Positions 24,813 to 62,344 of a stretch of DNA of 64,000 nt are shown here, one piece after another. Each line of letters begins with the position of its first letter. Position 1 is the stretch's first letter. The stretch is from Corallococcus macrosporus DSM 14697 (GTDB lineage: Bacteria; Myxococcota; Myxococcia; Myxococcales; Myxococcaceae): assembly GCF_002305895.1 (NCBI RefSeq), contig NZ_CP022203.1, forward strand, positions 7,908,001 to 7,972,000. The letters are read 5' to 3'. The position numbers were made by a program, and so were the translations under genes. The notes beneath the pieces are model-generated. The model worked only from the letters and a program-made list of their open reading frames with translations. It had not been told where the DNA came from and did not search any database.

Positions 24813-25142
24813 TTACGTCACATGACCTCCGAGCACATCCCCCTGCACGAGCCCCCCCGTCCCGTCCCCTGATAAGACCAACTCGGCGGTCATCCCAGCC
24901 TCAAGCTCCTGAAAGCAGCGGCCGTAAGCTCGTATCTGCTCGACACGAATCGAGACTGGCCGGTCCCCCGAACGAATGGACGGAGCATAGCCTTCGGGTG
25001 TTCGCACGGGCGTCAGCTTGAAAGCGACGGAGAAAATGTCGCCAACGCGAATGGCTCCCCGGTGAATTCGCCCGGCGGCACAGACACTACCAGCGTGGGG
25101 AATAACTATCTCAACGCCAAACTCAAAGTACCTGCTCGTCAT
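24813..25142 (-). CDS. Putative immunity protein resembling EF-Tu domain II
   Basis: A 109-residue protein whose ATG overlaps the stop of the Rhs toxin gene (ATGA), the usual place for the cognate immunity gene. The sequence resembles domain II of EF-Tu-type GTPases: GRIHRGAIRVGDIFSV corresponds to EF-Tu GRVERGTIKVGDEVEI, and VEQIRAYGRCFQELEAGMTA to the later strands before the final VQGDVLGG. There is no G domain. It could block the toxin by mimicking its target or may simply use the same beta-barrel fold, both of which are inference. It lies 65 bp from the right end of the IS and shares the lower G+C content of the Rhs gene. Confidence 0.72.
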   Translation of the reverse strand: MTSRYFEFGVEIVIPHAGSVCAAGRIHRGAIRVGDIFSVAFKLTPVRTPEGYAPSIRSGDRPVSIRVEQIRAYGRCFQELEAGMTAELVLSGDGTGGLVQGDVLGGHVT

Positions 25143-28100: not shown

Positions 28101-31100
28101 GACAATGACATTCCGCTTGCAGCACCGTGCGCAAGCGCAGACTGTCCTAGTGGTTGCTTGGTACAAACCTTATTACCAACGGCATCGTACGCCCAGGCCG
28201 TAACCTGATTCAGTGCATTCTCTTCACGAACACGCCGGCCCAAATCATCATAGGTGTAGCGGAGATCAAATGCGCTTCCTGTGACTCGTGGCCCCTTTGT
28301 CTGCGTCAACTGACCGGCAGCATCATACTGGAACGTCGTCTTCGCGGAGGCGAGTGTGCCAGCAGCCAAAACCTCTTCAATGAGGCGTCCGGCTCCATCG
28401 TAGAGTCGTTCGGTCGCATGACCATTCGCATCAACGAATCGAATGGGATGTCCCGCCGCATCATACTCCCAGGACTCCTCCGCAACGTCTGCATCCTGCC
28501 CTCGGACGCTGCGGGTCTTCCGCCCCAGCCCGTCATGGAGCAATACGGTGGGGACTCCGCGCCTGTTCAAGTGGGTCTGCTCGCGGGCTGCATCCTCGTA
28601 CTCCCAGGTCTGCGAGTACGTCGACGCACTGCTGGTCGAGGTAAAATCCGACTGACTCAGGACTCGCCCAGCACCATCAAACGAGAAGCGAGTAATGTAC
28701 CCCTTCGCATCTTCAGTCTGACGCTTATGAAGAGCGTCAAACCTGGATTTCGTCACATACCCAAGTGCATCGACGCGGCGAACCTCTCGGCCAAGGCCAT
28801 CCCGGTAGATCGTTGTGAGGTTCCCACGTGCATCCAACACTTCCTCTCGCGTCAGCGCGTCTACATCCCGGGCATCAATATACGCACGCTGTCCCACGAC
28901 AAGGGCTTGTCCTCCCTGGGACAAACTTTCCACCAACACCTCATTACGAGGTCGGCCCAGTGCATCGTAGGTGAACCGTCTCGTGATTCCGCGACCGTCC
29001 ACAGACTGGATGGGGTTTCCTTCGCCATCGTAAGCCTTGCTTGAGGAAACACCCATGGGGTGATGCACCGCCACCTGCCGTCCTAACGCATCGTGCACCG
29101 TTTCAGTGCGTCGCGCCAGCGCATCGACTCGGGCAGCCACCCGACTGAATGCGTCATACTCCACGGTACTTGTCAGAGCGAGAGCAGGCCCAATGCGCGC
29201 ATCATCTGGTTGGCGGGGCAGCGGGCCGGTCGGCGCGTCCTCGACCACCTTGAAAACACGCCCCAAGCCGTCCAAATGGCTCGCTTGGAGCAGCCCCCGA
29301 GCGTTCTGGGTCCATGTAACGTGCGCAACGTCATCATGGACGGTTTGCGTTGTGTAAACAACGTTGCCTGTTTCCGTCGCGGCACTCTCTGTGGTCGACA
29401 GTGTTCGGCCAAGGCCATCATATGTCGTGCTCAGCATCCGCTGCAGCACACCTCCGGCCTCCCAACGTACCTCTGTGACGTTACCTCTCCCGTCATAGCT
29501 ACGACGTTCCACCCGACCGAGCGAGTCCGTCAGGGCAACGGCTCGTCCAAGCAAGTCGTACGCAGTGGTGCTCGCGTGCCCATTCCCATCCACGTGGCGA
29601 ACCTTCCGCCCGGCCAAATCGTACCTAGACTCCTGAATGTAACGCAGCGGCAGGGCAGTATCGGACACCCCCGGCACCTCGGGGCTATGCTCTTCCACGA
29701 CTCGGTACAACGAGTCCAATCGATATGTCCGGTCAAACCCAGACAAATCCAAATGCCAGACCTTGTTACCGGCAGCGTCATACCTGGTTGTCGAGAGGAC
29801 GTAGCTCTTCCCCACCTCATCAGGGCTTCCCCCCTGTGAAATGAAGCGGGGACCGTCCGCCACCGAGACCGTCACCTCCACGGGCCGATCCGCGAAATCG
29901 TAGGCTGTGGTGGTAAGTACGCCGCGGCGGTCAATGACCGTCGTGCGATTACCCGCCTCGTCATAGCCGTAACGGGTCTCCAATGGAGCGGCGAGTCCAC
30001 CTCCTGACTCTACGATGCGCGCCAATCGTCCAGCGGCGTCCAGGTAGTAGTCTCTGACGAAATCCACTCCCTGCTCTTCACGCTTGAGCTGCCCGCCCGC
30101 GTAATACTGCACCGTCCGCGACACCCCTGGCTCCCCAAAGTTCCACTGGTCCTCCTGCGTCAGCCGGTCCAGCGCGTCCCACTGTAGAGTCCGATGCCGG
30201 CCAAGACCATCCTGCTCAACTTCCAGTCGCCCCCGTTCATCGAAGGTGGACTGCACGGTGATGACAGACGTATCGCCCACCTGCAGTGTCCTTGAGCGCA
30301 ACTGCCCGTACCGGTCATATTCCGTTACCTGCTCCTCATGACCGTCCGCGCCGACGGTCGCGGCCAAATCTCCTGGCAGAGCATTCGTCGGGCACTCAGC
30401 GCCCTCAATCCCGCAATAACGCCAACTCAACACAACGTCCTGCGGCGACGTCGCCAAGGATGCCACCACCTCGTCGCAAGGCGCAGTCGAAGTCAGCGCC
30501 GGACGAGACACCCGGTTCGCGTAGCGGCGCGTCTCAAGCAACCGCCCTGTCCCCGCAGGAACAACCTGTTCAGGAGAATCCCCCATCGAGTCGATTCTGG
30601 AGACGGTTGCAAAACCTTCCGCATCCACATGACATACCTGAACGTTGAATCCCGGGTCGTATCCCCATTTCTCCACAACCTCTTCGACGGGCAGGCCCTG
30701 AGCGTCCACAACCTGGAGCGTAGGGGCGATAAGCCCAGCCCCCGGCAGCACCGTGCCCTCGATACGACGTTCAATCAAATTTCCAAGCTCATCATAGACA
30801 AAGTGCGTCACTCGCCCGCGCTCATCTGCTTCTGTTTCACGGGCCCGGTGAGTTGCGCTCCATAGCGCACTAGACGTCGCAAAGACGCCAGTGGTCAACG
30901 GACGCACCGTCTCAACAACGGCCCCTGTCGCATTCATCCGGTAGCTTGACGCAGGCACACCTGGCCGAGGCCCATGGACCGTCGTAGTGTAGGTTGTCAG
31001 AGCTTCCCCGAGAATCGTGCGCGGCTCTGGCGCGATACTATACGTGAACGTGGTGATCCCCTCTCGAACAGGCGACGTTTCGAGAACCTCGATCACCTCC

Positions 31101-34100
31101 TTCACTCTCTCGTCTTTATTCATCAGCAGCAGGTAATCGTCCTCACCCGCCACCACATCCGTGCTGCTGTAATACGCATATCGAGTTACCTCGCCATCGG
31201 GTCCCGTATGTTGAGACATACGACTCCGGCCTGCCTCGGAAGTGCCCTGCTCGTAGGCAAAGGACTCAGTCCGAACAGGAGTTTCCTCAGAACAGGTACC
31301 GTCGTAGCGAGAAACGGACGCCAATCTGCCTTGCTCATTATAATCGTACCGGACGCAGGTCTGTAGAAACTCCACCTCATTGGCATCTGCCGTTCGAGAA
31401 TGATGCAACCCCACACTGACGACTCTCTCTCGCCCTGCTATTCGCTGATACCCTAGCCAGAGAGACCGCCCGCTCGCCAGATCGAATACCCGCGACAGTG
31501 TCCCCTCTCCAGAGAAGTTGTTGTAATCCAACCTCAGCGAGTGCCCAGTCGGAGCAACCACCGACGTAAGCCGATACTGCTCGGCGAAGCTGAATGGGTC
31601 CCTCAGGCCGTAGTGATACTCCACCCCGCTCTTCGCCCTGAAAACATACTTTCGATCGGATCCGGAGCCCTCCGCACGGAACGTTCCGTGGTATCCCGGT
31701 TGCGGAGTACACCCCGTGCCGTCACCGGTGCATCTGAATGCCTGTGCGCCACCCTCTCCACTGGTGACGAGGAAACGGAAGTTTCCAAGAGGCCTAACGA
31801 CCCCATTATAGGCATGCGTCCAACCCAGCCCCAACACACCGTCTTCTGATTCACCGCTGGCATAGGTACGCGACCATGTCAGCCCCAGGCCGCGACTTGG
31901 AGACTCCAGATCCACGGCCTGCTTCACCAAATGACCATCCACCAAGCTGACCCCCTTGATGAACGTATGGCCCACAGGCAGCCGCCCTTCTGACATAACC
32001 GAGGTCTTGAGTGGCACTTCACGGGTCACTGTCCGACCATTGGCATTCGCAGGAGTAAATGAGATACCAATAGTTTCAACGCCCGCAGTCCCCGGTGAAA
32101 GGTCCACCACCGCGTATCCATTCCACTCCACCACGATGGGCAATCCGCTGATCGGGGTGACTTGCGTGACGGCATTACTAGCGTTGACCTGCACAGCGGA
32201 TCTGGAGATCTCTTCCCCGCCGCGCAACACGCGCAGTACTCCATCAGAATTGACAAGCGCAACAAGCTGGGCGGAATAAGCCACAGGCACCTGGGCATCC
32301 TCAGGTGGAGGCTGCCCCGGAACAGGATTCCGCGCAGAAACAAAATCCCACGCTGGCAACACCCAACGCGCGACCAGCGGGAGGCCCCTCAACTCAAGCT
32401 CTGGTTCTGGAACAGTGACCCAGAACTCCTTGACGGCCTGAAGCACCTTTGTGGCGGAAGTTGGGCCATAATCCTTCGCGTACAGTTCGAACCGAACACT
32501 CCCGCCCCGAGTAGAGGAGTTTAGGCTCAATAGGTGACGAATGCTGGCGGTTGCTTGAATTTCCGCATCACCATCCGAGTCAAGAGGCAGTTGCTCAAAT
32601 CCCATTACAATGGCGTCGCCAGGTTCGTTTGGCTGAACCATCATTCGAACATAGAGCTTGTCCGAGCTGCTGTTGTTTACTGTAAATCCCAACGCTTGGT
32701 CGGACGCATCCGCATCCCCCTCAGAAGCTACGATTCTGCCATCCGGAAGTCTCTTCACAAGGTGTAAGGAAGGAACGACAGAACGACTGGGGGCAAACAT
32801 CTGCCGATGACAGTAAACAGGAGTGACACGCCCATCCTCATACACACGGCAACTTACAAGGTAATTCTGATACGATTCAGGATTCGCCGCCGAAGGCGTC
32901 ACCAAAGCCTTTACGCGATGAACAACAGATAGCGCATCATCAAGGGGCTCAACTCCTACCAAAACGGGCTCTTCCACATAGTCATCCAGCAGATTTTGAC
33001 TGATTCCACCTGGTCCATAACCCGCATACGTCTCAATCCGGACCTCGGCAACCAGCAACCCCGGCTCATTGCCATTCAGCGGACTCCAACCGGTGGCGCC
33101 TTGTGCCCAGTGTAGAATCTGAATCTTTGAGACCCGCGAAGAGCGCGTCCCATAGACAGTAGCAAACGGATCATAAGGCGGAGCACGCAAAACATATCTA
33201 TTCGTAGACGCGGTTGCACTCACGTCAAAGTCTCGAGTGAGCCCCCCCAATGCAGCCGTAACTCGATAAGTCCCCGATGTTGGTCCAGGAATATAGCTCA
33301 CACTCTGAAACCCAGAGGTCAGCGACCAGCCAGTTATTGTCATCAACTGGAGCGGACTCGAATAATCGAGGACTTGGGGAGTGTCGACCATGCCAGACGT
33401 AAAGAACCGTCCTGTCGGGTTCAACTGCGTCCAAACCACGGGCTGATTTGCCAGGTTATTTCCATACTGGTCTACGACCCGAACATTCAGGCTCCCCATC
33501 ATCTGCAAGCCAGGCTCGGTCGGCGTAGTATCAAAACTTGGACGAAGGTCCGCAGGGACATCCGGTAATCCAATCAGTACGAATGGCTGAATCAGCCCAA
33601 ACACCTGAGTTCCGTTTGATGTCTCCGCTGTCACTAAATTGTAGCCCAGGTGCTGGGCAGCGTGCGTGCCCATCCTTTGAACAGGTGACCTCGCGATATT
33701 CGTATCGGGAACCACCCGCACCGACGCGTGCCCGTTATCGTCTGTAACTGCCTGCAACTCACTCTGGGTTCCCCCCGGGCCGGACTGTGGCAGAAACGTC
33801 AACTGAGCATTCCCCGCGCGCTTGAACGTTACAGTCGCACCGACAACAGGGTCGCCAGAGAGAGTCGACACTCGCACTGACACCGGCAAAGCGAGCGGCT
33901 GACCGACCACGCCTTCCTGCAGGTCAGTTGCCACAACTTTTTCGATTCGAGCAACTTGCGTCACATCGTCTACCGCAAACCCAGCGTCCCAACTCGAAAC
34001 CTTCGATTGCAACCGAGTGATGCTCTCGTGCGGTGAAGCACCCCAAGCCAGTTGCCATGCCCGTGAGTAGCTACCGCCAGAAAGTGATTCAATTGCCTTC

Positions 34101-34582
34101 AATTGAAGCGCAATTGCCTCCAAAATTTCGTCTTTGTAGGCCTGGGATGAGTCCCCCAGGAAAGCGCCTGCGCTTACTTGCTCCATGACATTCCGGAGAG
34201 CGGCGTGGGCGCGCTCCAGGGCGAGTGTTTCTGTCGCATCAGGCCATGGCGCATGTAGAAAACGCTGCCACCAAGACGGCCGAGCGCCAAGAACTGCATG
34301 GGCCTTCGCCAGGCTCTCTACCAAGCGAACCTGGTCCGCATCCCGTCTTGACTCCCACTCGGCGCGTGCTGCCTCAAAAGCCGCTGTCCAGTCCTCAGCC
34401 AGGTTTTCTTCCAACAAAGGAGGTTGGCGGCACATCGAGTCAGCCGACAGCCCCGCTTCGAGCTGCTGCTCGGGCAGCCATTTCCAAACGCCCCCATCCG
34501 CACGTGCCACCAGCGACCCTAACAGCGCTAGCAGCAACATCCCCGTCTGACCTGACCGCATCGCACGCCCCAAGGCTCGCAT
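25139..34582 (-). CDS. Giant secreted Rhs/YD-repeat polymorphic toxin with ADP-ribosyltransferase-like C-terminus
   Basis: A protein of about 3,147 residues. It has a Sec signal peptide (GMLLLALLGSLVARADGG), a helical N-terminal region to about 210, Ig-like (Big_1-type) domains at about 215-460, and a DUF6531-like segment near 890 (LESPSRGLGLTWSRTYASG). Dozens of RHS/YD repeats run to about 2650, then the Rhs core (GLTYARARYYDGDLGRFISR near 2745), a Gly/Ala-rich pre-toxin stretch, and a variable C-terminus from about 2985. That end shows FLFRGTSEGY, PASTDPAVATIFATES and LEKEVAVN, resembling the R, S-T-S and E-x-E elements of ADP-ribosyltransferases. AAGGGGAG sits 6 nt before ATG 34582 but touches ATG 34588. 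G+C is well below the flanks, suggesting transfer. Confidence 0.93.
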   Translation of the reverse strand: MRALGRAMRSGQTGMLLLALLGSLVARADGGVWKWLPEQQLEAGLSADSMCRQPPLLEENLAEDWTAAFEAARAEWESRRDADQVRLVESLAKAHAVLGARPSWWQRFLHAPWPDATETLALERAHAALRNVMEQVSAGAFLGDSSQAYKDEILEAIALQLKAIESLSGGSYSRAWQLAWGASPHESITRLQSKVSSWDAGFAVDDVTQVARIEKVVATDLQEGVVGQPLALPVSVRVSTLSGDPVVGATVTFKRAGNAQLTFLPQSGPGGTQSELQAVTDDNGHASVRVVPDTNIARSPVQRMGTHAAQHLGYNLVTAETSNGTQVFGLIQPFVLIGLPDVPADLRPSFDTTPTEPGLQMMGSLNVRVVDQYGNNLANQPVVWTQLNPTGRFFTSGMVDTPQVLDYSSPLQLMTITGWSLTSGFQSVSYIPGPTSGTYRVTAALGGLTRDFDVSATASTNRYVLRAPPYDPFATVYGTRSSRVSKIQILHWAQGATGWSPLNGNEPGLLVAEVRIETYAGYGPGGISQNLLDDYVEEPVLVGVEPLDDALSVVHRVKALVTPSAANPESYQNYLVSCRVYEDGRVTPVYCHRQMFAPSRSVVPSLHLVKRLPDGRIVASEGDADASDQALGFTVNNSSSDKLYVRMMVQPNEPGDAIVMGFEQLPLDSDGDAEIQATASIRHLLSLNSSTRGGSVRFELYAKDYGPTSATKVLQAVKEFWVTVPEPELELRGLPLVARWVLPAWDFVSARNPVPGQPPPEDAQVPVAYSAQLVALVNSDGVLRVLRGGEEISRSAVQVNASNAVTQVTPISGLPIVVEWNGYAVVDLSPGTAGVETIGISFTPANANGRTVTREVPLKTSVMSEGRLPVGHTFIKGVSLVDGHLVKQAVDLESPSRGLGLTWSRTYASGESEDGVLGLGWTHAYNGVVRPLGNFRFLVTSGEGGAQAFRCTGDGTGCTPQPGYHGTFRAEGSGSDRKYVFRAKSGVEYHYGLRDPFSFAEQYRLTSVVAPTGHSLRLDYNNFSGEGTLSRVFDLASGRSLWLGYQRIAGRERVVSVGLHHSRTADANEVEFLQTCVRYDYNEQGRLASVSRYDGTCSEETPVRTESFAYEQGTSEAGRSRMSQHTGPDGEVTRYAYYSSTDVVAGEDDYLLLMNKDERVKEVIEVLETSPVREGITTFTYSIAPEPRTILGEALTTYTTTVHGPRPGVPASSYRMNATGAVVETVRPLTTGVFATSSALWSATHRARETEADERGRVTHFVYDELGNLIERRIEGTVLPGAGLIAPTLQVVDAQGLPVEEVVEKWGYDPGFNVQVCHVDAEGFATVSRIDSMGDSPEQVVPAGTGRLLETRRYANRVSRPALTSTAPCDEVVASLATSPQDVVLSWRYCGIEGAECPTNALPGDLAATVGADGHEEQVTEYDRYGQLRSRTLQVGDTSVITVQSTFDERGRLEVEQDGLGRHRTLQWDALDRLTQEDQWNFGEPGVSRTVQYYAGGQLKREEQGVDFVRDYYLDAAGRLARIVESGGGLAAPLETRYGYDEAGNRTTVIDRRGVLTTTAYDFADRPVEVTVSVADGPRFISQGGSPDEVGKSYVLSTTRYDAAGNKVWHLDLSGFDRTYRLDSLYRVVEEHSPEVPGVSDTALPLRYIQESRYDLAGRKVRHVDGNGHASTTAYDLLGRAVALTDSLGRVERRSYDGRGNVTEVRWEAGGVLQRMLSTTYDGLGRTLSTTESAATETGNVVYTTQTVHDDVAHVTWTQNARGLLQASHLDGLGRVFKVVEDAPTGPLPRQPDDARIGPALALTSTVEYDAFSRVAARVDALARRTETVHDALGRQVAVHHPMGVSSSKAYDGEGNPIQSVDGRGITRRFTYDALGRPRNEVLVESLSQGGQALVVGQRAYIDARDVDALTREEVLDARGNLTTIYRDGLGREVRRVDALGYVTKSRFDALHKRQTEDAKGYITRFSFDGAGRVLSQSDFTSTSSASTYSQTWEYEDAAREQTHLNRRGVPTVLLHDGLGRKTRSVRGQDADVAEESWEYDAAGHPIRFVDANGHATERLYDGAGRLIEEVLAAGTLASAKTTFQYDAAGQLTQTKGPRVTGSAFDLRYTYDDLGRRVREENALNQVTAWAYDAVGNKVCTKQPLGQSALAHGAASGMSLSQLEANACGGTHVTRYAYEEEGKLVSVTDAANGLYTYVYDAARNMVAKQDANGNLTTYEYDARNLRSVEHQHLDAHSRLTSAQRSSVPLFESGATPTSNTGTLTWRHAYDGNRNEASRVDPKGQRVEFSHGLLDRLASRTYSQHATPREFPSVDSEVLTYDPNGNLTGESQSKQTANGVRLEVVTSTFDALDRLKTRLREYDGKQVSYRYDALGSRTRVEDSDGVATTYMYDALGRLTQATLPEGVVEYRYWPDSLLKGVTWPNGIFEGRCYDAAGRLSQIVVGRGGVNDSCQSIGGMVSRHAYVYDDNGNRLVQTAVRTSPSTQELGSPEFTEYGYDVLNRLTGVKSPDGQASLYRWDAVGNRTGERRAPSLAVPGLGPDSYNTVLAHEVTYDVVGIFNRVDWLRNIRDFKDISKHVSLSYDLAGNIVGKTAQGSTRVFAWDIRNTLTAVYDNGVEVGRYDYDANLQRTERRTTSEHVGYVLDGVFVLQEADGSQSHQPTQRRYHYGEGPLAVSDVASAALSFLGIDALGSVTDALSATGQVTSAREYDAWGNYRGGSAPGVSDFKLGFTGHQYDVETGLTYARARYYDGDLGRFISRDSYGGQLDDAPSLHRYVYAHGNPLAYYDEDGHSATAVGAVGGFFWGAAQMGLGMGKDLVNGRIRDTTDYLSLWGQNIIGGMEIGASIDLTIASGGLAATMGSGALAGAGFNALTFMGERESWSEFASQQKSGAAYGAVLGPIAGKVAPALAKVPLIKEAVEAVGAAGTKLVARVATTQSGRALLASSNPFKTLGVGTADDVAAGVASGFQQGAAETINGGSVMAPAGGYAPVAASPLLGKSSGTFLFRGTSEGYAGNDALQRIGITPASTDPAVATIFATESSNFGKGVVHVASPADLAGIEISAGNYLAALEKEVAVNVAPLDFARRAGVTLTVEEARALLRGLGAEVPGRVPDKAALSDALRNAPQLTADQVRAFVREATKKVKGP

Positions 34583-34588
34583 TGACAT

Positions 34589-35414: not shown

Positions 35415-35482
35415 AAATGCGCCCCATGCGTTATTAGGCGCGACCCATTTTGCGACCCCGCTCCGTATCCCATTTTGAAGGG

Positions 35483-36232
35483 ATGACGGACGGCCGGGCA
35501 TTGGGCTCGAGCCGGCTCGCGATGAGGGACGGAGCTACCGTGCTGCCTGGAAACGACCGGTCCGTCTTGGAGGCTTTCCGCCGGGGGGAGACGTCCGTCC
35601 TCACGCAGGTGTACCGGACCTATTCGCCCGAGGTGCTCCGCTACCTCTCGCGAAAGTTCGCGGTGGGCGCGGAGGGGGGGACGCGCACCGTCGCGTTGTC
35701 CGCGCTGGACCTGGACGCCGCGCATCAAGAGACCTTCGTCCGGGCCTTCCGGCCCAACATGCGGCAGGCCTATGACGGGGTTCGCCCCTACCTGGGCTTC
35801 CTCCTCACGGTGGCGCGCTCCACGGCCATCGACCTCATGCGCGCGTCGGGACGCGTGTCCCGCGAGGCCGTCCCCATGGACGACGCGCCCGAGCTGACGC
35901 ACCTGCCCACCGAGGCCAGGACGCCCGAGGAAGAAGCCCTCAGCGCCGAGGTGCGCGACCTGGTCCGCGCCTTCCTCGACACACTCACGGACGAAGGCCG
36001 CGCCCTGGCGCAGCTCCGCTTCGTCGAAGGGCTCTCGCAGGAATCCGCCGCCCTGCAGCTCCAGCTCACCCGAGGCGAGGTCCGGGTGCGCGAGCGGCGG
36101 CTGCGGACGCAGTTCACGGAGCATCTGAAGGAATCGGGCTGGCTGGACGCATCGGCCGAGCCCGGGCGGATGGAGCTGGGAGTCCTCCTGGCCTCGCTCG
36201 CCTTGTGCGCAATCGGGAGCATGCCCTCATGA
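35483..36232 (+). CDS. RNA polymerase sigma factor, ECF-like
   Basis: A sigma-70 family factor of about 249 residues. Region 2 covers about 40-110 (HQETFVRAFRPNMRQAYDG, then YLGFLLTVARSTAIDLMRA) and region 4 about 165-220 (LAQLRFVEGLSQESAALQLQ, then VRVRERRLRTQF). An alternative GTG near 35540, with GGAG 5 nt upstream, would shorten the protein to about 230 residues, and the start is uncertain. The stop overlaps the ATG of the next gene (ATGA), a zinc-binding anti-sigma factor, so the pair forms a regulatory module. It probably drives its own operon, as is usual for ECF pairs. Confidence 0.88.
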   Translation: MTDGRALGSSRLAMRDGATVLPGNDRSVLEAFRRGETSVLTQVYRTYSPEVLRYLSRKFAVGAEGGTRTVALSALDLDAAHQETFVRAFRPNMRQAYDGVRPYLGFLLTVARSTAIDLMRASGRVSREAVPMDDAPELTHLPTEARTPEEEALSAEVRDLVRAFLDTLTDEGRALAQLRFVEGLSQESAALQLQLTRGEVRVRERRLRTQFTEHLKESGWLDASAEPGRMELGVLLASLALCAIGSMPS

Positions 36233-36987
36233 GGTGGTACGAGAGACATATCGACGCCAGCCTGACCCGGTGGTCGTTGGGGGACCTGTCCTCCCACCAG
36301 GCCGCCCGCCTGCTGCGCCACGCCCACGACTGCCGCCGCTGCGGCCCCCGCTACGAGCGCTGGGCCCAGGCCCACCGCGCCCTCGAAGGCAATGACCTCC
36401 ACGCCCCGTCCTCCGTGGAGCTCAAAGCCTTGTCAGACGGAGGCCTGGAGGCCGCCCTCGCCGCCGCCGCGCCAGAGCAGACGCTCTCCCGGTGGCCCTC
36501 CCTGGCCCTCCTCGGCGGCGCGCTGGCCGCGGTCTTCCTCGCCGTCGTGCTCGTCCCCTCCGCCTCGAACACGCTCGGAGAGTTCACCTCCCGCGGCGAA
36601 GGCACCACGCCCCCCAGCGTCGCCCTGCGCATCTTCTGCGCCACCCCCGGCCAGGCTCTGCGGGAGCTGCACGCCGGAGACGCCTGCCGCGCCGGCGCCA
36701 TGCTCGCCTTCGCCGCCGGGGGCAAGGCGCCCTTCACCCACGTCGCGGTCCAGGTCCGCGGCGCCAAGAAGGCGGAGGTGACGGCCGGTCCCTTCGCCCT
36801 GTCTGGAAGCCTGGGCAAGGAAGCCCCCCTCGAGCTGACCGTGGCCATGCCCGAGACGGCCGGCACCGTCGAAGTCGTCGCCGTCTTCGCGGGCAGCCCG
36901 GCCGAGTCCCTGGCGACCCTGCGCGGCGAGCCCACCGAGGGCACGGTGGTGCTCAGGCAGTCAGTGAGGGTAGAGGAAGGGCCATGA
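36229..36987 (+). CDS. Transmembrane anti-sigma factor with ZAS-type zinc motif
   Basis: A 252-residue protein. The cytoplasmic N-terminus carries Hx3Cx2C (HAHDCRRC, about residues 37-44), the zinc anti-sigma signature. One transmembrane helix (SLALLGGALAAVFLAVVLVP) follows at about 92-111, then a periplasmic domain of about 140 residues rich in beta strands with two Cys (IFCATPG and GDACRAG) that may form a disulfide. It overlaps the sigma gene and the downstream caspase gene by 4 nt each, so the three are translationally coupled. It is predicted to hold the sigma factor at the membrane and release it on an envelope signal. Confidence 0.82.
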   Translation: MRWYERHIDASLTRWSLGDLSSHQAARLLRHAHDCRRCGPRYERWAQAHRALEGNDLHAPSSVELKALSDGGLEAALAAAAPEQTLSRWPSLALLGGALAAVFLAVVLVPSASNTLGEFTSRGEGTTPPSVALRIFCATPGQALRELHAGDACRAGAMLAFAAGGKAPFTHVAVQVRGAKKAEVTAGPFALSGSLGKEAPLELTVAMPETAGTVEVVAVFAGSPAESLATLRGEPTEGTVVLRQSVRVEEGP

Positions 36988-38714
36988 AAAAGCTGGGAGT
37001 GCTCCTCGGCGCCGCGGCACTGCTGCTGGCCCGTGGTGCCTCGGCCGAAGCCGTGGTCCGCCGTGCCCTGGTCATTGCCCATAACGGGAGCGACGACCCG
37101 TCGCTCCCGTCGCTGCGTTTCGCGGACGATGACGGCGTGCTGTGGGCGGAGACGCTTCAGCGCCTGGGCGTGGAGACGACGCTGCTGGTGGACCCGGACG
37201 AAGCGACGCGCGCCACGGCCCGGCCGGTGCTCGCGGGCGCCCGGCCCCCAACCCCCGACGAGGTGAAGCGCGAGGTGGCCCGCCTCCGCGCGGCCAACCT
37301 CGTTGACCATGAATTGGGACGACAGACAGACGTGCTGCTCGTCTACGTGGGCCACGGAAACACAGACGAAGCAGGGCGCGCGTACTTCACGCTCGACGGG
37401 GGACGGCTCGACAAGGCCAGCCTCTACGCGGACGTGGTGGACCCGCTCGGCGCCAGCTACGTCCACCTCATCGTGGACGCGTGCCGCGCCTCCGGCGTCG
37501 TGGGAAGCCGCGGCGGCCAGACGGACGCGGCGGTGCTCGCGGAGCTGCGCGGCATGCTCGCCCGCGAGCAGCTCGCCACCCGGCCCACGGTGGGCGCCGT
37601 GTTCGCGGAGAGCGACGACGGCGAGACGCACGAGTGGTCCCGCATCCGCGCCGGCGTCTTCAGCCACGTGGCCCGCTCTGGCCTCATGGGCGCCGCGGAC
37701 ATCAACGGCGACGGCCAGGTGGAGTACAGCGAGCTGGGCGCCTTCGTCACCGCGTCGCTCCAGGGCGTGAAGGGCCTCCCCGCGCGCCTGTCCCTCCACG
37801 CCTTCGCACCCACCCGCGAGCCCCGGCGTCCGCTGGTGGGCCCCGCGCCGAAGGGGCCCAGCCTCCCGCTGCCCTCGGGCCTCGAGCACTCGCGCATCTC
37901 CGTGGAGGACTCGGACGGACGGCGCCTGGCCGACGTGCGCCGCTCCGAGGACCAGTACGTGCTGCTGCGCCTCCCCGAGCGCGACGTGTATTGGATTCGC
38001 ACGCCCACGCAGGAGGCCCGCATCACCCTGGCCGAGCTGTCCACCGGCGTCATCGACCTGGGCGACCGCGAGCTCCAGGAGCGCGGCCCCGCCGAGGAGG
38101 CCCTGCGCAAGGGCTTGTTCGCGGTGCCGCTCGACAAGGCCTTCTACGAAAGCTACGTGGCGGCAACGGGGCTCGCGCACGTGGGCGTATCCCAGGCCTT
38201 CCCGCCGGGCGCGGGCGGCGCCTTCCCGCGCTTCATGACGCGGCGGCCCCACGCAATGGAAGGCTGGGACCTGGGCTGGACGGGACAGCAGGCCCCGCTC
38301 GGGATGGACACGCTGGCCACCGGCCCCACGGTGACGTGGCGGCGCGAGGCGCCCCTGCCGTCGCTCTACTACGGCGCGCGCGCCAGCTATGGCCTGACGC
38401 CGCTGGCCACCGACGGCATCCGCACGCACCGGGGCGCGCTGCTGGGACTCCTGGGCGCGCAGGCTCCGAAGCGCCTGCGCGTGCCGCTGTTCCTGGAGGC
38501 GGGCGCGGGCTGGGGCTTCCTGGGCATCACCCGCGGACAGGTGCGCATGGGCGACCCCACCGTGTTCTCCACGTACACGGCGGCGGGGGTGACGGGAAGT
38601 CTGGCGGGTGTGCGGCTGCGGCTGGCGGCCACGTTCACCTACGACCGCGTCACCCTCGACAACAGCAATCACTGGGACCGCGCCTTCGGCTTCGAGCTGG
38701 CGCTGCGACGCTGA
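36984..38714 (+). CDS. Secreted caspase-like (C14/metacaspase-type) protein with EF-hand
   Basis: A 576-residue exported protein with signal peptide MKKLGVLLGAAALLLARGAS. The caspase-like domain covers about 25-240: RRALVIAHNGSDD (first strand), catalytic His in LLVYVGHGNTDEAG, and catalytic Cys in LIVDACRASGV. An EF-hand loop DINGDGQVEYSELGAF follows at about 235-250, suggesting calcium dependence. The C-terminal 300 residues include FYGARASYGL- and GAGWGFLGI-like strands and end with FGFELALRR, which resembles an outer-membrane or surface beta domain. Translation is coupled to the anti-sigma gene by ATGA. A secreted protease controlled by its own sigma/anti-sigma pair is inferred, and the substrate is unknown. 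Confidence 0.86.
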   Translation: MKKLGVLLGAAALLLARGASAEAVVRRALVIAHNGSDDPSLPSLRFADDDGVLWAETLQRLGVETTLLVDPDEATRATARPVLAGARPPTPDEVKREVARLRAANLVDHELGRQTDVLLVYVGHGNTDEAGRAYFTLDGGRLDKASLYADVVDPLGASYVHLIVDACRASGVVGSRGGQTDAAVLAELRGMLAREQLATRPTVGAVFAESDDGETHEWSRIRAGVFSHVARSGLMGAADINGDGQVEYSELGAFVTASLQGVKGLPARLSLHAFAPTREPRRPLVGPAPKGPSLPLPSGLEHSRISVEDSDGRRLADVRRSEDQYVLLRLPERDVYWIRTPTQEARITLAELSTGVIDLGDRELQERGPAEEALRKGLFAVPLDKAFYESYVAATGLAHVGVSQAFPPGAGGAFPRFMTRRPHAMEGWDLGWTGQQAPLGMDTLATGPTVTWRREAPLPSLYYGARASYGLTPLATDGIRTHRGALLGLLGAQAPKRLRVPLFLEAGAGWGFLGITRGQVRMGDPTVFSTYTAAGVTGSLAGVRLRLAATFTYDRVTLDNSNHWDRAFGFELALRR

Positions 38715-38725
38715 GGGACCTGTTC

Positions 38726-40588
38726 ATGAGACGCATGTGGATGGCGGTGCTCGTGCTCGCCACGGGGTGTGACGGCATCGACCTGGAGCAGCTCGTCCGG
38801 CAGCACCCGCCGCTCACCCGGCTGGACCCCGAGCCCGCGGGCGCCAACTGCGTCCATGGGGGCCACTTCGTCCGCACCGGCCTGGACCGGAATGACAACG
38901 GCGCGCTCGACGACGACGAGGTGACACGCGCCGAGTACGCGTGTGTCACCTCCATCCCCGGCGTGCTGGTGCGCGTGCAGGACGAGCCCGCGGGCGCGAA
39001 CTGCACCGAGGGCGGCAAGGTGTACCGCGCGGGCCAGGACACCAATGGCAACGGCGAGCTGGACGACAGCGAGGTCAGCCGCCAGGTCTACGGCTGCGCC
39101 AGCTCCGGGGCCGTGGTCACCCGCGTGCGCCCCCGGGAGCCGTTCATCTTCCCCTGCGGCGAACAGGGCGCCGTCGTGGAGGCGGGCCAGGACCAGGACG
39201 GCGACGGCGTGCTGGATGACGCAGAGGTCCGGGCCACGGCCAACCTCTGCGTCCTCCCCTCCGAGGTCCTGCTGCGCCAGTCACCCGCGCCCGCGGGCGC
39301 CGCGTGCCCCACGCCCAGCACCCAGGTGGACGTGGGCACCGACGCGGACGCGGACGGCGTGTTCGAGGGCGAAGAGGTGATGTCCTCCATGTTCGTGTGC
39401 CAGCCCCTGCACACGCTGGACGGCAACTACCACGTGCGCAACGCGGTGGACCTGGTGGCGCTGGAGGGCATCTCCCGCATTCGCGGCAACCTCCTCTTCG
39501 CCGCCGGGACCGCCACGGAGGCCGTCCTCCCGGACCTGATGCTGGTCGAAGGCGCGCTGGAGGTCATCGAGACGTCGCTCGAACGCCTGGAGCTGCCCTC
39601 GCTGCGCCTCGTGAGAGGGCCGCTGCTGGTCTCCCAGAACGCCGCATTGAGCACGCTGTCCCTGGGCAACGGCAGCCACGCCCCGCTCTGGGTCCGGGGA
39701 GATTTCAGCCTGGTCTCCAATCCCTTGCTCTCCACGCTCGCGGGGGTCAGCGCGGTCTCCCCGGCGAACAGCCTCTTCCTGAAGGACAACGACGCCCTCG
39801 ACGGGGGGTACTTCACCTATGTCGCCGGGCACCCCGGCGACATCACCGTGGAAGACAACGCGGCGCTCTCCACCCTCCCCTTCCGGCACCTCGAGTGGCT
39901 GGGCGGCTCCCTGACAATCCGTGGGAACTCCGCCCTGGGCTCCCTGAGCGGGACGGTGCTGCAGACGGTCGTCGGGGACCTGGTCATCGAAGACAACGCG
40001 GCCCTCTCCGGGTTGTGGGGTATGCCGGCGCTGACGTCCATTGGCGGCGCGCTCAGCGTGAGTGACAACGGCAACCTGCGCTCGGTGGAGGGAATGGACG
40101 CGCTCACCCAGGTGGGGACGCTCGAAGTCAACCGGAACGCGGTGTTGGAGGCGGCGGGGGCCTTCCCCAAGCTGGAGCGCGTCACCTCCGGCATGCATTT
40201 TCGTGGCAACGCCCTGCTGAAGGACCTGTGGGGGCTGGAGCGGGTGCGGAACACCGGCGTCCTGTACATCGGCGAGAACCCGCGGCTCTCCCGGCTGATG
40301 GGCTTGGACCGGCTGCGCACGCTGACCACCCTGACCGTGGAGAACAACGCGAGCCTCACCGACCTGTCGGACCTCGTCCTCCTCCACTCGGTGGAGGACC
40401 TGATGGTGCTCTCCAACGAGAACCTGCAGCGCCTGGACCTGAACGCCCTGGAGGACGTCGGCCGCTACTTCGTCGTCACGGAGAACCCCCGGCTGCCCAC
40501 CTGTCTGGCCGTGTCGCTCGCCACGCGCGTGGGGCCGGGCGAAACGCCGGAGATTCGTGGCAATGACAGCTCGGCCGTCTGCGAGTGA
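38726..40588 (+). CDS. Lipoprotein with DUF7151-type repeats and beta-solenoid, paralogue 1
   Basis: A 620-residue lipoprotein, lipobox LVLATGC (Cys15). Residues about 40-235 hold four DUF7151-like repeats of the form GxxCxxGGxxVxxGxDxNxNGxLDxxEV...YxC. Examples are GLDRNDNGALDDDEV and GQDTNGNGELDDSEV, which have calcium-binding-like Asp/Asn loops between paired Cys. The rest (about 240-600) is a repetitive L-domain/LRR-like solenoid with many NxAL and GNL-type turns (VSDNGNLRSVEG, VENNASLTDLSD). AGGGA lies about 8 nt before ATG 38726. It starts 11 bp after the caspase gene and is the first of three tandem paralogues, probably in the same operon. Confidence 0.84.
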   Translation: MRRMWMAVLVLATGCDGIDLEQLVRQHPPLTRLDPEPAGANCVHGGHFVRTGLDRNDNGALDDDEVTRAEYACVTSIPGVLVRVQDEPAGANCTEGGKVYRAGQDTNGNGELDDSEVSRQVYGCASSGAVVTRVRPREPFIFPCGEQGAVVEAGQDQDGDGVLDDAEVRATANLCVLPSEVLLRQSPAPAGAACPTPSTQVDVGTDADADGVFEGEEVMSSMFVCQPLHTLDGNYHVRNAVDLVALEGISRIRGNLLFAAGTATEAVLPDLMLVEGALEVIETSLERLELPSLRLVRGPLLVSQNAALSTLSLGNGSHAPLWVRGDFSLVSNPLLSTLAGVSAVSPANSLFLKDNDALDGGYFTYVAGHPGDITVEDNAALSTLPFRHLEWLGGSLTIRGNSALGSLSGTVLQTVVGDLVIEDNAALSGLWGMPALTSIGGALSVSDNGNLRSVEGMDALTQVGTLEVNRNAVLEAAGAFPKLERVTSGMHFRGNALLKDLWGLERVRNTGVLYIGENPRLSRLMGLDRLRTLTTLTVENNASLTDLSDLVLLHSVEDLMVLSNENLQRLDLNALEDVGRYFVVTENPRLPTCLAVSLATRVGPGETPEIRGNDSSAVCE

Positions 40589-40633
40589 CCTCCCCCCGCG
40601 GCGACTCCCGTCATGAGGAAAAGAGACGCACCC

Positions 40634-42259
40634 ATGCGATGGACCTGGATGACGGTGCTGGTGCTGCTCACGGGCTGTGACGGCATCGACCTGCGGAAGC
40701 TCGTCACGCAGCACGACGCCCGCACGCGGGTGGACGCGGAGTCGGCCGGGGAGCACTGCCCGCTCGGCGGCAGGGCCTTCCTCGCGGGGCTGGACCTGAA
40801 CGACAACGGCGCGCTCGACGACGCCGAGGTGACGAGCACCGAGTACGTCTGCACCACGCCCACGCCCGGGGTGCTGGTGCACATGCAGGCCGTGGCCCCC
40901 GGCGAGCAGTGCCCTCACGGTGGGCACGTGTCACGCGCGGGCCAGGACACCAATGGCAACGACGTCCTGGAGGACGGCGAAGTCACCCGCGAGGTGTACG
41001 GCTGCGCCGACCCCGCCCCCGGCGGCGTGCTTCACCGCACCCAACATCAGCCCCCCGGGGGCCACATTCCTCCGTGGCTCTGTAGCTGGGGCCGCACCTG
41101 GGTGGAGGCCGGCACGGATACGAACGGGAACGGGCTGCTCGACGACGACGAGGTCCGCGCGATGGAGCACGTCTGCATCGAGCCGGCGCGGCTCGTCGTC
41201 GCGCAGGCCCCCGAGCGCGCTGGCACGACCTGCCCGAAGGGAGGCACTCGCGTCCAGGCGGGCGTGGATGAGGATGGCAATGGCTCGCTCGAGGGCCTCG
41301 AGGTCCACGGGACACTCTACGTCTGCGAGGCCCTGCTCACGCTCCACGGCGACTACACCGTGCGCTCTGCCTCGGACCTGGCGGCGCTCCAGCATGTCTC
41401 CCGCATCCAGGGCTCGCTCCGGATTGACGACGCGTCCATCACCGAGCTGAGCCTGCCAGCGCTGTCCGTGGTGGACCACACCCTGCGCCTCTGGAACAAC
41501 CAGCTCCTGACCCGGGTGGACCTGCCGGCCCTGCGCTTCGTGGGCGACGACTTCGACGTGTCGGCCAACCCCGCGCTGAGCACCCTGCTGGCCGGCGGCG
41601 CCAACCATCTCCGGCTGCTCGTGGGGCGGGGCGTCGTCGTGAGCAACAACGACCAGCTCCGCAGCCTGAGCGGGCTGCTGAGCGTGTCGCCCCGGGTGAA
41701 CCTGCTCCTGACGGACAACGATGCGCTGGAGTTCCATCCCGGCGAGGAGTCGCCGCTCGTCAGCGTCGACAACCTCATGGGCTCGCTCATCGTCCAAGGG
41801 AATGCCGCGCTGCAGGCGCTTCCACTCTCGAACCTCTTCCATGTCGGCGGAGACGTCAGCATCGCCAACAACCAGGCCCTGCGCTCCTTGAGCGGGCTCA
41901 GTCCGGAGAGCATCGGCGAATCGCTCGACATCATTGGCAACGAAGCCCTCCGGGAGCTCGCGAGCCTCACCGAGCTTCGCCACCTGACCGAATTGAGGGT
42001 GAGCGGGAACCCCGCCTTGACGACCCTGGAGGGCTTGAGCGCCCTGAGCAGCCTCCAGTCCCTCCAGGTGTCAGACAACGTGAGCCTCGCCCGGTTGGAG
42101 CTGACCTCCCTGCATCAGGTCGCCCAGGCCTTCGCGGTCACGGGCAACGCCGGACTTCCGTCATGCCTCGCGACCTCGCTCGCGGACGCCGTCTACACGG
42201 GCGACGCCGGGCAGCTCGCCATCAGCGGCAACGATGACGCCGCCACCTGCGGTGAATGA
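40634..42259 (+). CDS. Lipoprotein with DUF7151-type repeats and beta-solenoid, paralogue 2
   Basis: A 541-residue lipoprotein, lipobox LVLLTGC. It has the same layout as its neighbours: CDGIDLRKLVTQHDAR opening, four Cys/Asp repeats (GLDLNDNGALDDAEV, GQDTNGNDVLEDGEV, GTDTNGNGLLDDDEV, GVDEDGNGSLEGLEV), then a leucine-rich solenoid with NNQALRSLSGLS-type turns. The solenoid is about 80 residues shorter than in paralogue 1. ATG 40634 has GAGGAAAAG upstream. An upstream ATG at 40613 lacks a ribosome-binding site. It ends 21 bp before paralogue 3. Confidence 0.84.
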   Translation: MRWTWMTVLVLLTGCDGIDLRKLVTQHDARTRVDAESAGEHCPLGGRAFLAGLDLNDNGALDDAEVTSTEYVCTTPTPGVLVHMQAVAPGEQCPHGGHVSRAGQDTNGNDVLEDGEVTREVYGCADPAPGGVLHRTQHQPPGGHIPPWLCSWGRTWVEAGTDTNGNGLLDDDEVRAMEHVCIEPARLVVAQAPERAGTTCPKGGTRVQAGVDEDGNGSLEGLEVHGTLYVCEALLTLHGDYTVRSASDLAALQHVSRIQGSLRIDDASITELSLPALSVVDHTLRLWNNQLLTRVDLPALRFVGDDFDVSANPALSTLLAGGANHLRLLVGRGVVVSNNDQLRSLSGLLSVSPRVNLLLTDNDALEFHPGEESPLVSVDNLMGSLIVQGNAALQALPLSNLFHVGGDVSIANNQALRSLSGLSPESIGESLDIIGNEALRELASLTELRHLTELRVSGNPALTTLEGLSALSSLQSLQVSDNVSLARLELTSLHQVAQAFAVTGNAGLPSCLATSLADAVYTGDAGQLAISGNDDAATCGE

Positions 42260-42280
42260 CGCTCCGAAAGGCTCCTTGAG

Positions 42281-44167
42281 ATGCGATGGATGTGGATGTG
42301 CGCGCTGGTCCTGGCCACCGGGTGTGACGGCATCGACCTGCGCAAGCTCGTCACCCAGCACGAGGCGCGCACGCGGGTGGTCACCGAGCCCGCGGGCCCG
42401 AACTGCGAGCACGGCGGCAAGGCCGTGCTGTCCGGGCTGGACCTGGACGAGGACGGGGTGCTCGGCGACGCCGAGGTGACGGGCACCGAGTACGTCTGCG
42501 CCACCCTCGCGCCGGGCGTGCTGGTGCGCACCCGGCAGCTCCCTCCCGGCGAGCCCTGCGCCCTGGGCGGACAGCTCACCCTGGCGGGGACGGACCTGGA
42601 TGGAGACGGCGTCCTCTCGGATGACGAGGTGACTCGCGAGGTCCACGGCTGCCTGGAGCCCGCGCCGGTCCTCGCCCAGGTGCGCCCGCTGCTGACCCCT
42701 CCCTTCGTCTGCCGGTACGACAACGCGCTCATGGAGGCCGGCGTGGACCTCAATGGGAACGGCGTGCTCGACGACGACGAGCTCCGCGCGGCCGCGCGCC
42801 TCTGCGCGGACCCCGCCGTGACGCTGCTGCGCCAGCGGCCCGAGCCCGAGGGGCCGGACTGCACCGCTGGAGGCACCCGGGTGGAGGCGGGCGTGGACGA
42901 CAACCGGAACACGGCGCTCGACGACGCCGAGGTCCGCGCGACGGCCTATGTGTGCCAGCGCTCCGCGACCCATGACGGGACGTACGCCGTGGAGAACGCG
43001 GCCGACCTGGAGGCGCTGAAGGCCCTCACCAGCATCCGCGGCGACCTCTCCATCGAGAACACGGAGGTCACCGCGGTGGTGCTGCCCGGCCTCGTGTCGG
43101 TGGAAGGCTCGCTGTCCATCCACGGCAACCCTGGGCTGATGCAGGTGAACCTCCCGGGTCTTCGCTACGTCGGGGAGACGCTGAGCATCCGGGACAGCGC
43201 CCAGCTCAACGAGCTCCGCATCGGCCCCCAGACGCTGGAGGCGCTCCCGCCCGTTCGCGTCCACAGCCTGGCGCTCGCCTCGCTCCCCGCCGTGTCGTCC
43301 CTGAGCGGCCTGGCCGCCGTGACGCCCCGCTTCGACCTCTCCTTGTTGAACACCGGCGTGCTGTGGAGTCCGGGCACGTTCCCCCACGTCCAGGCGCTGG
43401 CGGGCTCGCTCACCGTCCACGCGAACCCCGCCCTGGAGCTGCTGCCGCTGTCCGCCCTGGCCCAGGTGGACGGGAGCATCGTGATTTCAGGCAACCCGAT
43501 GCTCCAGTCCCTGGAGGGCCTGGGGCCGCTGACGATGGTTGGCGGCGGGCTCGACATCTCCAGCAACAACGCCCTCACCCACCTCTCCGGGCTGGAGCAG
43601 CTTTCGGCCGTGAAGCGCGTCATCACCGTCATGAACAACGCCCGGCTGCTGGACGTCCGCTTCGACGGGCTCAGGGAAGCGGGCTCGCTCATCGTCGCGG
43701 GCAACGCGGTGCTGGAGCAGGTGGGCCCCATGCCGTCGCTGTTCCGGGTTCAGGGCGACGTCTCCCTGGCAGAGAACCCGCGCCTGCTGCGCGCGACGGA
43801 GCTGCCAGCGCTCCAGAGCATGGGCGGCGCCCTGTTCGTCACCCTCAACCCGCTGCTGACGGACCTGTCCGGCTTCCAGCAGGTGACGTGGATGAGCGGG
43901 TTGTACGTCACGGGCAACGAGGCGCTGGAGGACCTGGGCACGTTGGGTTCGCTCCACACCGTGGGCACCCTGGAGGTGCGGGAGAACGCGGCGATGACGG
44001 CGCTGCACCTGGACGCCCTGGCGCGCGTGCGCGACGCGTTCATCGTCACCGACAACCCCCGGCTCCCCTCGTGCTGGGCGACGATGCTCGCGGACGACGT
44101 CTACACCGGGCCGCCGGAGGAGCGCCGCATCTGGAACAACGACAGCGTCACGCCTTGCCAGCTCTAG
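42281..44167 (+). CDS. Lipoprotein with DUF7151-type repeats and beta-solenoid, paralogue 3
   Basis: A 628-residue lipoprotein, lipobox LVLATGC, opening CDGIDLRKLVTQHEARTRV, nearly identical to paralogue 2 over the first 40 residues. Four Cys/Asp repeats follow (GLDLDEDGVLGDAEV, GTDLDGDGVLSDDEV, GVDLNGNGVLDDDEL, GVDDNRNTALDDAEV), then a long solenoid with ISGNPMLQSLEGLG and VTGNEALEDLGTLG-type turns. AAAGG lies upstream of ATG 42281. A hairpin at 44196-44218 probably ends the operon. The surface-exposed solenoid could bind carbohydrate or protein, which is inference from the fold type. Confidence 0.85.
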   Translation: MRWMWMCALVLATGCDGIDLRKLVTQHEARTRVVTEPAGPNCEHGGKAVLSGLDLDEDGVLGDAEVTGTEYVCATLAPGVLVRTRQLPPGEPCALGGQLTLAGTDLDGDGVLSDDEVTREVHGCLEPAPVLAQVRPLLTPPFVCRYDNALMEAGVDLNGNGVLDDDELRAAARLCADPAVTLLRQRPEPEGPDCTAGGTRVEAGVDDNRNTALDDAEVRATAYVCQRSATHDGTYAVENAADLEALKALTSIRGDLSIENTEVTAVVLPGLVSVEGSLSIHGNPGLMQVNLPGLRYVGETLSIRDSAQLNELRIGPQTLEALPPVRVHSLALASLPAVSSLSGLAAVTPRFDLSLLNTGVLWSPGTFPHVQALAGSLTVHANPALELLPLSALAQVDGSIVISGNPMLQSLEGLGPLTMVGGGLDISSNNALTHLSGLEQLSAVKRVITVMNNARLLDVRFDGLREAGSLIVAGNAVLEQVGPMPSLFRVQGDVSLAENPRLLRATELPALQSMGGALFVTLNPLLTDLSGFQQVTWMSGLYVTGNEALEDLGTLGSLHTVGTLEVRENAAMTALHLDALARVRDAFIVTDNPRLPSCWATMLADDVYTGPPEERRIWNNDSVTPCQL

Positions 44168-59752: not shown

Positions 59753-59822
59753 GGCTCGCCTCTGGAAGAACGGCCGGAAGCGGAGGACACACCCACTTCC
59801 AGCCGGGGGGACACTTCAAGGA

Positions 59823-60653: not shown

Positions 60654-60703
60654 CCGACAGCTCCTGACCCTTCATGGGAAATCCATGAATCAGGTTTTTC
60701 CAC

Positions 60704-60719
60704 TTCAATGCGCATGCCA
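60704..60719 (-). promoter_or_regulatory. Sigma-54-like promoter element, cassette 1
   Basis: On the minus strand it reads TGGCATGCGCATTGAA. The TGGCA and TTG blocks have the -24/-12 spacing of sigma-54 promoters, but the -12 GC is GA. The near edge is 51 bp from ATG 60653. Confidence 0.5.
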
Positions 60720-60850
60720 GGGTTTCCCATCCTCTGAGAAACCATTGAATTGTGACACGAATTGCAACAACTCCATTGCGCCCAGTGACTCCCGAAGTCT
60801 CACGCATCGCGGCGGCGTCCAGGCGACGCGACGCATGCAATGCCTTGCAT

Positions 60851-62251: not shown

Positions 62252-62344
62252 GGGACGCTCTTCGGGAGTGAGGACCGGAAAGGAAAGCCAACGGCCCGGA
62301 GCGCGCCACGGCTGCGCCCGCCCCAGGCTGGAACAGCACGGCGA

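Follow-up and report, generated by a model that had tools for sequence, protein, structure and literature searches.

We identified a six-gene operon in Corallococcus macrosporus DSM 14697 in which a caspase-like protease (CAS) is probably, as judged from conserved sequence motifs, the site-1 protease of the anti-sigma factor encoded beside it, cutting this protein at R122 and thereby freeing an extracytoplasmic function (ECF) sigma factor. The operon lies in a stretch of 64,000 nucleotides (referred to here as the window; 7.908 to 7.972 Mb of a single-contig genome of 8,973,512 bases, the nearest named relatives of which are Myxococcus). Its six plus-strand genes form one unit, SIG-ANT-CAS-LP1-LP2-LP3, encoding the ECF sigma factor (SIG), the anti-sigma factor (ANT), CAS, and three lipoproteins (LP1 to LP3). 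The SIG/ANT and ANT/CAS junctions are 4-bp overlaps (ATGA), and gaps of 11, 45, and 21 bp precede LP1, LP2, and LP3, respectively; all six genes and their spacing are as described in an earlier reading of this DNA from its letters (here, the original prediction). SIG-ANT-CAS and the lipoprotein genes are contiguous in all 25 genomes of the same genus with an unbroken locus (L052 to L076), which excludes a chance arrangement, and the six-gene operon is genuine. A 26th genome of the genus (G016), in which pieces of the locus are split over contigs, was kept outside this count.

Sequence comparisons indicate that the sigma/anti-sigma/caspase core recurs across the Myxococcota, often as several operons per genome. 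A search of named genomes yielded 80 loci, nearly all of them titled as myxobacteria or deltaproteobacterial metagenome-assembled genomes, and 69 of these had enough upstream sequence. A sigma or anti-sigma gene adjoins the caspase gene in 68 of the 69 loci, and both are present in 59; the ANT and CAS genes overlap in 35 of 56 same-strand loci, and in the class C lineages, SIG-ANT is transcribed divergently from CAS. Of 126 good Myxococcota genomes in a wider draw, 104 had a match to the caspase domain. In the window's genome itself, two additional sets lie at 6.03 Mb (L242) and 8.00 Mb (L244), and another is probably present at 6.10 Mb (L246). These results favor the original view of one dedicated system, for which gene order in other Myxococcota had been named as a check: the order is kept genus-wide and the triad phylum-wide, the ATGA overlaps are repeated, and a conserved putative ECF-type promoter precedes SIG. 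The neighboring cargo varies (i.e., an RCC1 lipoprotein, an Ig [He_PIG] lipoprotein, BNR-like proteins, Kelch/TIG proteins, or none), and the repeat lipoproteins, which number one to four among same-genus operons with the rest of the order constant, are not the core element.

Individual loci showed additional features. L094 (BNCN01000017.1) is titled Comamonas sp. KCTC 72670 but has a Myxococcus operon with a caspase 89% identical to that of the window, and it is probably mislabelled. The ANT-CAS junctions of L082, L117, and L118 contain tandem near-repeats, many starting with ATGAG, that amount to multiple copies of the start of the caspase signal peptide, and L136, L137, and L140 carry a second sigma-like gene (215 to 220 aa) directly after CAS.

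ANT (36229..36987, plus strand) has the features of a membrane anti-sigma factor in both its sequence and its AlphaFold2 (AF2) model, namely, an H-x3-C-x2-C zinc motif, one transmembrane (TM) helix, and an extracytoplasmic domain. The model, with a predicted local distance difference test (pLDDT) score of 85, comprises the helices of a zinc-binding anti-sigma (ZAS) domain (residues 1 to 80), the TM helix (92 to 108), a disordered linker (109 to 130), and a periplasmic beta-sandwich (131 to 249). The zinc motif reads HAHDCRRC (36319..36342, plus strand), and its His and both Cys residues are conserved in 32 to 33 of the 42 members of the family alignment; Pfam zf-HC2 misses the ANT of the window and recognizes 15 of 42 relatives. 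When the periplasmic sandwich was compared with the PDB, the only matches were generic sandwiches of the Ig/RhoGDI-like type (best Z, 8.5), and no family could be assigned. The periplasmic domain contains two Cys residues, C137 (36637..36639) and C153 (36685..36687), each of which is retained in 38 of the 42 anti-sigma factors; they likely form a disulfide and possibly provide a redox input.

One basic residue, R122, stands out in an ANT linker that is otherwise unalignable, being Arg in 39 and Lys in 3 of the 42 members. The residue after it (P1') is Gly or Ser in 40 of 42, P4 is Phe, Trp, or Leu in 40, and P2 is Ala, Pro, Val, or Ser in 39; the 42 linker rows are related to each other, and these motif counts are not independent. 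In the window, this predicted juxtamembrane cleavage site reads F-T-S-R122/G123 (36583..36597, plus strand), and residues 113 to 123 have pLDDT values below 50. Because the distance of R122 varies from 7 to 20 residues to the membrane side and from 11 to 30 residues to the sandwich cysteine, the site behaves as a floating short motif, as expected of a protease site. The pattern [F/W/L/Y]-x-x-[R/K]-[G/S] occurs in 37 of the 42 family linkers (in the remaining five, R or K is likewise present at this position), in none of a control set of 10 other membrane zinc anti-sigma factors of the window's genome, and in 9.4% of shuffles.

CAS (36984..38714, plus strand) is predicted to consist of a signal peptide, a metacaspase-like domain, an EF-hand, a beta domain, and an 8-stranded outer membrane barrel. 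It matches Pfam Peptidase_C14 (PF00656) at 21.8, just above the cutoff of 21.4, and because a PDB sequence search gave mainly EF-hand proteins, the fold was taken from the AF2 model (mean pLDDT, 87). In this model, residues 25 to 291 match Arabidopsis metacaspase-4 (6w8r; Z, 19.3; root mean square deviation [rmsd], 3.4; 223 residues aligned), and residues 421 to 576 match the 8-stranded NspA barrel (1p4t; Z, 18.0; rmsd, 2.9; 151 residues aligned) as well as OmpA (1bxw; Z, 16.7), with the predicted barrel strands spanning residues 426 to 575 (38259..38708, plus strand). In an alignment of 50 relatives, H124, C167, D165, D48-D50, R176, D239, and E250 are invariant, D243 is kept in 49, and G177 is kept in 47. 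The invariant pair of catalytic His124 (37353..37355, plus strand) and catalytic Cys167 (37482..37484, plus strand; in D165-A-C), the Pfam match, and the single EF-hand loop (D239-E250; 37698..37733, plus strand) bear out the earlier description of a caspase-like protein with a His-Cys dyad and an EF-hand. Calcium control of CAS is plausible, as positions 1 and 12 of the EF-hand are invariant in 50 of 50 caspases.

In OmpA-type barrels, an even number of strands together with an N-terminal passenger places the passenger in the periplasm. The fusion of a metacaspase fold to an 8-stranded outer membrane barrel in the model of CAS suggests that the protease domain lies in the periplasm and the barrel in the outer membrane. 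The original prediction, which called the caspase secreted, is corrected in that the protein ends in a predicted outer membrane beta-barrel. In several distant caspases, a C-terminal hydrophobic helix replaces the barrel, which would also be consistent with a periplasmic protease.

Caspases are matured in the loop after the catalytic cysteine. In CAS, this L4 loop (residues 175 to 181; pLDDT, <50) reads VVGSR176/GG, with the predicted autocleavage site at R176/G177 (37509..37514, plus strand), and the ANT linker of the window reads FTSR/G. A distant subfamily with an EF-hand and the full metacaspase signature (YSGH...DSC) has K-G in both the caspase loop and the anti-sigma linker, and in 16 K-type operons, an Arg at P3 tends to be common to both sites (Fisher test, 0.007, uncorrected for kinship). 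An automated table of linker and loop residues over 119 operons gave R/R in 78, K/K in 24, and mixed pairs in 17, among which inspection left approximately five true mismatches (L138, L153, L157, L278, and L286), the rest, approximately 13 as judged by eye, being parsing errors. In the metacaspase TbMCA2, the S1 acids D95 and D211 are located in helix 1 and two residues before the catalytic cysteine, and the Arg-specific RgpB binds a P1 Arg with a helix-1 acid (PMC4357240). Invariant acids occupy the same TbMCA2/RgpB places in the CAS family: D48-D50 open helix 1, and D165 precedes the catalytic Cys by two residues. MALT1, an Arg-specific protease of the same clan, prefers LVSR and nearly requires Gly at P1' (PMC6207715). 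CAS is predicted to cut after Arg or Lys. A common motif and strict pairing would likewise be seen if the ANT linker were a pseudosubstrate restraining the caspase, with the status of the sigma/anti-sigma pair controlling the protease; we consider this quite improbable, because a basic P1 followed by Gly or Ser in a flexible linker looks cleavable (cf. MALT1 substrates) and an inhibitor has no need of an anti-sigma factor with a zinc domain.

Several lines of evidence argue for CAS as the site-1 protease of ANT: the constant pairing of the caspase with sigma/anti-sigma genes (68/69 loci), the predicted periplasmic location that the protease shares with the ANT linker, the floating linker motif that is absent from the 10 control anti-sigma factors, the S1-type acids that suit Arg or Lys at P1 together with the cutting of LVSR/G by MALT1, the same R/K-G motif in the caspase's own loop, and the precedent of Csx29, which cuts the ECF sigma inhibitor Csx30. 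At rest, the membrane-bound ANT would hold SIG, as expected from its family, and CAS would be anchored in the outer membrane by its predicted barrel with the protease domain facing the periplasm. In response to a trigger, which may be calcium acting via the EF-hand or else a ligand encountered by the lipoproteins or the loops of the barrel, CAS would cleave itself in the maturation loop (R176-G177) and, as the shared motif suggests, would cleave ANT at R122-G123, close to the outer face of the inner membrane. The degradation of a cut anti-sigma factor by intramembrane and cytoplasmic proteases is established for RseA and RsiW, and we assume that the shortened ANT would be destroyed in this way. 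The freed SIG would then transcribe its own operon from GACCC-N16-CCGTAT, yielding more caspase and lipoproteins, the latter possibly being the variable, fast-evolving recognition or output part.

Several points weigh against this reading. The strongest objection comes from L241 (5024-6968; at approximately 0.297 Mb of the window's genome) and L256 (5296-7240), in which sigma and anti-sigma genes of this family are followed not by a caspase gene but by a gene for a secreted, barrel-like protein of 202 aa, and the linker still reads TRIKG. Either the linker is cut in trans by another caspase or the motif serves a different purpose, and these two loci represent a natural control for the cleavage hypothesis. 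The R/K match between linker and loop derives largely from a single deep split that separates two subfamilies and is therefore support, not proof; within the R family, one matched change (L285 and L287) stands against approximately three unmatched changes (L138/L153/L157, L286, and L278), on account of which strict R/K covariation was rejected as proof. The conservation of D48-D50 and D239 in L092 to L171 arises partly by selection, since the fetch patterns for these loci contained ADDD and ADxN; 15 caspases picked without these patterns agree on the conserved residues. In the class C caspases (L123, L127, and others), both a barrel and a TM helix are lacking. Finally, a caspase anchored in the outer membrane and a substrate anchored in the inner membrane must meet across the periplasm.

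SIG matches TIGR02937 at 64.8 bits (cutoff, 42.9) and Sigma70_r4 at 25.2 (cutoff, 24.1), and regions 2 and 4 are both recognized. Its identity is as originally predicted, and its start has been revised from 35483 to a GTG at 35540 (SIG, 35540..36232, plus strand), which is almost certainly right because the preceding stretch has out-of-frame indels in relatives and holds the promoter flank. The putative ECF-type promoter upstream of SIG, GACCC-N16-CCGTAT (35442..35468, plus strand), resembles a -35/-10 element and has a spacing that is fixed across aligned relatives in which the surrounding sequence has diverged. The pattern RACCC-N16-SCGTAT has four exact matches in the 8.97-Mb genome, and the reversed control pattern also has four; a genome-wide regulon based on this pattern was rejected, and only the operon's own site is credible. 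The copy upstream of SIG is the only one of the four at the 5' end of a gene, which would be consistent with a sigma factor dedicated to this operon alone. A sigma-70 promoter and terminator scan gave nothing above shuffles. In the class C intergenic regions, no promoter motif common to both directions was found, and coregulation of the caspase by the sigma factor is therefore not supported there.

The caspase had originally been placed under the control of its own sigma factor; the linker motif suggests that the caspase also controls the sigma factor. A rival explanation is that the operon's caspase and lipoproteins serve as outputs and nothing more. An ordinary site-1 protease, or the binding of a ligand to the anti-sigma factor, would release the sigma factor, the caspase would act on other envelope or prey proteins, and the linker R/K-G would be structural or serve another protease. 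Such an arrangement would agree with the promoter, which reads into the whole operon, with the fact that most ECF operons encode sigma targets, with the retention of K-G in L241 and L256, and with class C, where the caspase is divergent and the conserved common motif points to the sigma gene. We nevertheless consider it unlikely, because the caspase is the constant third gene phylum-wide while the other cargo varies, because a motif that lies in a segment with pLDDT values below 50 and floats over 7 to 20 residues speaks against a structural role, and because the caspase loop has the same motif.

LP1 (38726..40588), LP2 (40634..42259), and LP3 (42281..44167), all on the plus strand, are paralogs, in line with the original description of three repeat lipoproteins after CAS. 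According to Pfam, each has four DUF7151 repeats (148 to 163 bits) and a receptor-L/leucine-rich region, and each carries a lipobox; a literature search of partial coverage found no paper on DUF7151. In the gene tree, the lipoproteins cluster mainly according to position, and some have been duplicated or lost locally. The ratio of nonsynonymous to synonymous substitution rates (dN/dS) is 0.41 to 0.52 for the lipoproteins versus 0.10 to 0.23 for SIG, ANT, and CAS, and it reaches 0.63 in the leucine-rich part; such fast change fits recognition proteins without proving that role. It could also fit an effector of cell death or predation, in which the caspase would act on self or prey, the lipoproteins would aim it, and the sigma pair would serve only for timing; myxobacteria undergo developmental cell death, in which a role for metacaspases has been proposed (PMC3501461). 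An effector of this kind seems most improbable in view of the deep conservation in many Myxococcota lineages, of a barrel anchor and periplasmic protease domain unlike the design of a secreted toxin, and of the PADLOC search, which found no defense family for the caspase, anti-sigma factor, or lipoproteins and only a weak "control protein" match for SIG. Two more DUF7151 repeat proteins of the window's genome (G000), at 0.419 Mb and 4.734 Mb, are not beside the caspases found.

The original prediction knew of no described counterpart, but sigma-metacaspase operons were reported in 2012 by Asplund-Samuelsson et al., in whose account four of five M. xanthus metacaspases are in operons with sigma-70 factors and the link extends to Anaeromyxobacter, Haliangium, and Sorangium (PMC3501461). 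These operons have the same sigma-70 and metacaspase pairing as the window operon, which very probably corresponds to one of them; the passages of that account consulted here name no anti-sigma factor, barrel, EF-hand, lipoproteins, promoter, cleavage site, or mechanism for them. Like DegS/RseP-RseA-sigmaE, the window system has an ECF sigma factor and an anti-sigma factor with one TM helix and a periplasmic domain that is cut outside the membrane (a cut only proposed here), whereas DegS is a PDZ serine protease and the proposed site-1 protease of the window is an operon-encoded caspase-clan cysteine protease with an EF-hand and an outer membrane barrel. In type III-E CRISPR, Csx29, a caspase-clan (CHAT) protease, cuts Csx30, an inhibitor of an ECF sigma factor (PMC10028731). 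The principle of a caspase-clan protease directed against an ECF sigma inhibitor is common to the Csx29-Csx30-CASP-sigma system, where it is proven, and to the window system, where it is proposed; the Csx29 system does not belong to the envelope but is triggered by target RNA, and it has neither a membrane anti-sigma factor nor an outer membrane barrel.

CAS shares with metacaspases, orthocaspases, and MALT1 (C14) a His-Cys dyad, acidic S1 residues, and a predicted preference for R/K at P1 and Gly at P1', but it differs from other C14 members in its fused outer membrane barrel and in the EF-hand after the catalytic core, TbMCA2 having a four-aspartate calcium site (PMC4357240). As in FecA-FecR-FecI, an outer membrane barrel protein, a membrane anti-sigma factor, and an ECF sigma factor are encoded in one unit; in contrast to that system, the barrel carries a protease, and the six operon proteins have no TonB-dependent receptor or FecR-type anti-sigma match in Pfam or NCBIfam. 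ECF sigma genes also adjoin genes for caspase-clan proteases in ECF54 (CHAT or subtilase neighbors, no anti-sigma factor) and in EACC2-caspase loci (PMC8999054, PMC8195603), which are not described with a membrane anti-sigma factor and a secreted EF-hand caspase. A literature search of partial coverage found neither a caspase named as an envelope anti-sigma protease nor a description of an outer membrane caspase combined with a membrane anti-sigma factor, an ECF sigma factor, and variable surface lipoproteins.

Elsewhere in the window, a gene beside the operon (25139-34588, minus strand) encodes a very large RHS-repeat protein of approximately 3,140 aa with DUF6531 and nine RHS repeats, and another (21425-23446, plus strand) encodes a lipoprotein with Ig, endonuclease/exonuclease/phosphatase, and lamin-tail domains. 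A two-gene unit, consisting of a di-heme oxidoreductase (DHOR) and a secreted protein of approximately 275 aa without a Pfam family, is tandemly duplicated at 58370-63169 (minus strand). No RNA families or tRNAs were found in the window.

More tentatively, these operons may represent caspase-gated sigma switches throughout the phylum, in which a ligand or calcium, sensed at the surface by the barrel and lipoproteins, would activate an outer membrane caspase that cuts both itself and the anti-sigma factor, in each case at an R/K-G motif. The several copies within a genome would be insulated and told apart partly by R-type or K-type specificity. If this is true, bacterial caspases would be envelope signal proteases and not only death enzymes. 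Each myxobacterial genome carries several caspase homologs; if CAS is the site-1 protease, the question of their role in bacteria would become reducible to single residues (R122 in the anti-sigma factor and C167 in the caspase), and many ECF sigma factors would gain a likely activation route. CAS would then represent a new class of protease for envelope signaling, tying bacterial caspases to transcription, and the window system would be an envelope version of the Csx29/Csx30 principle.

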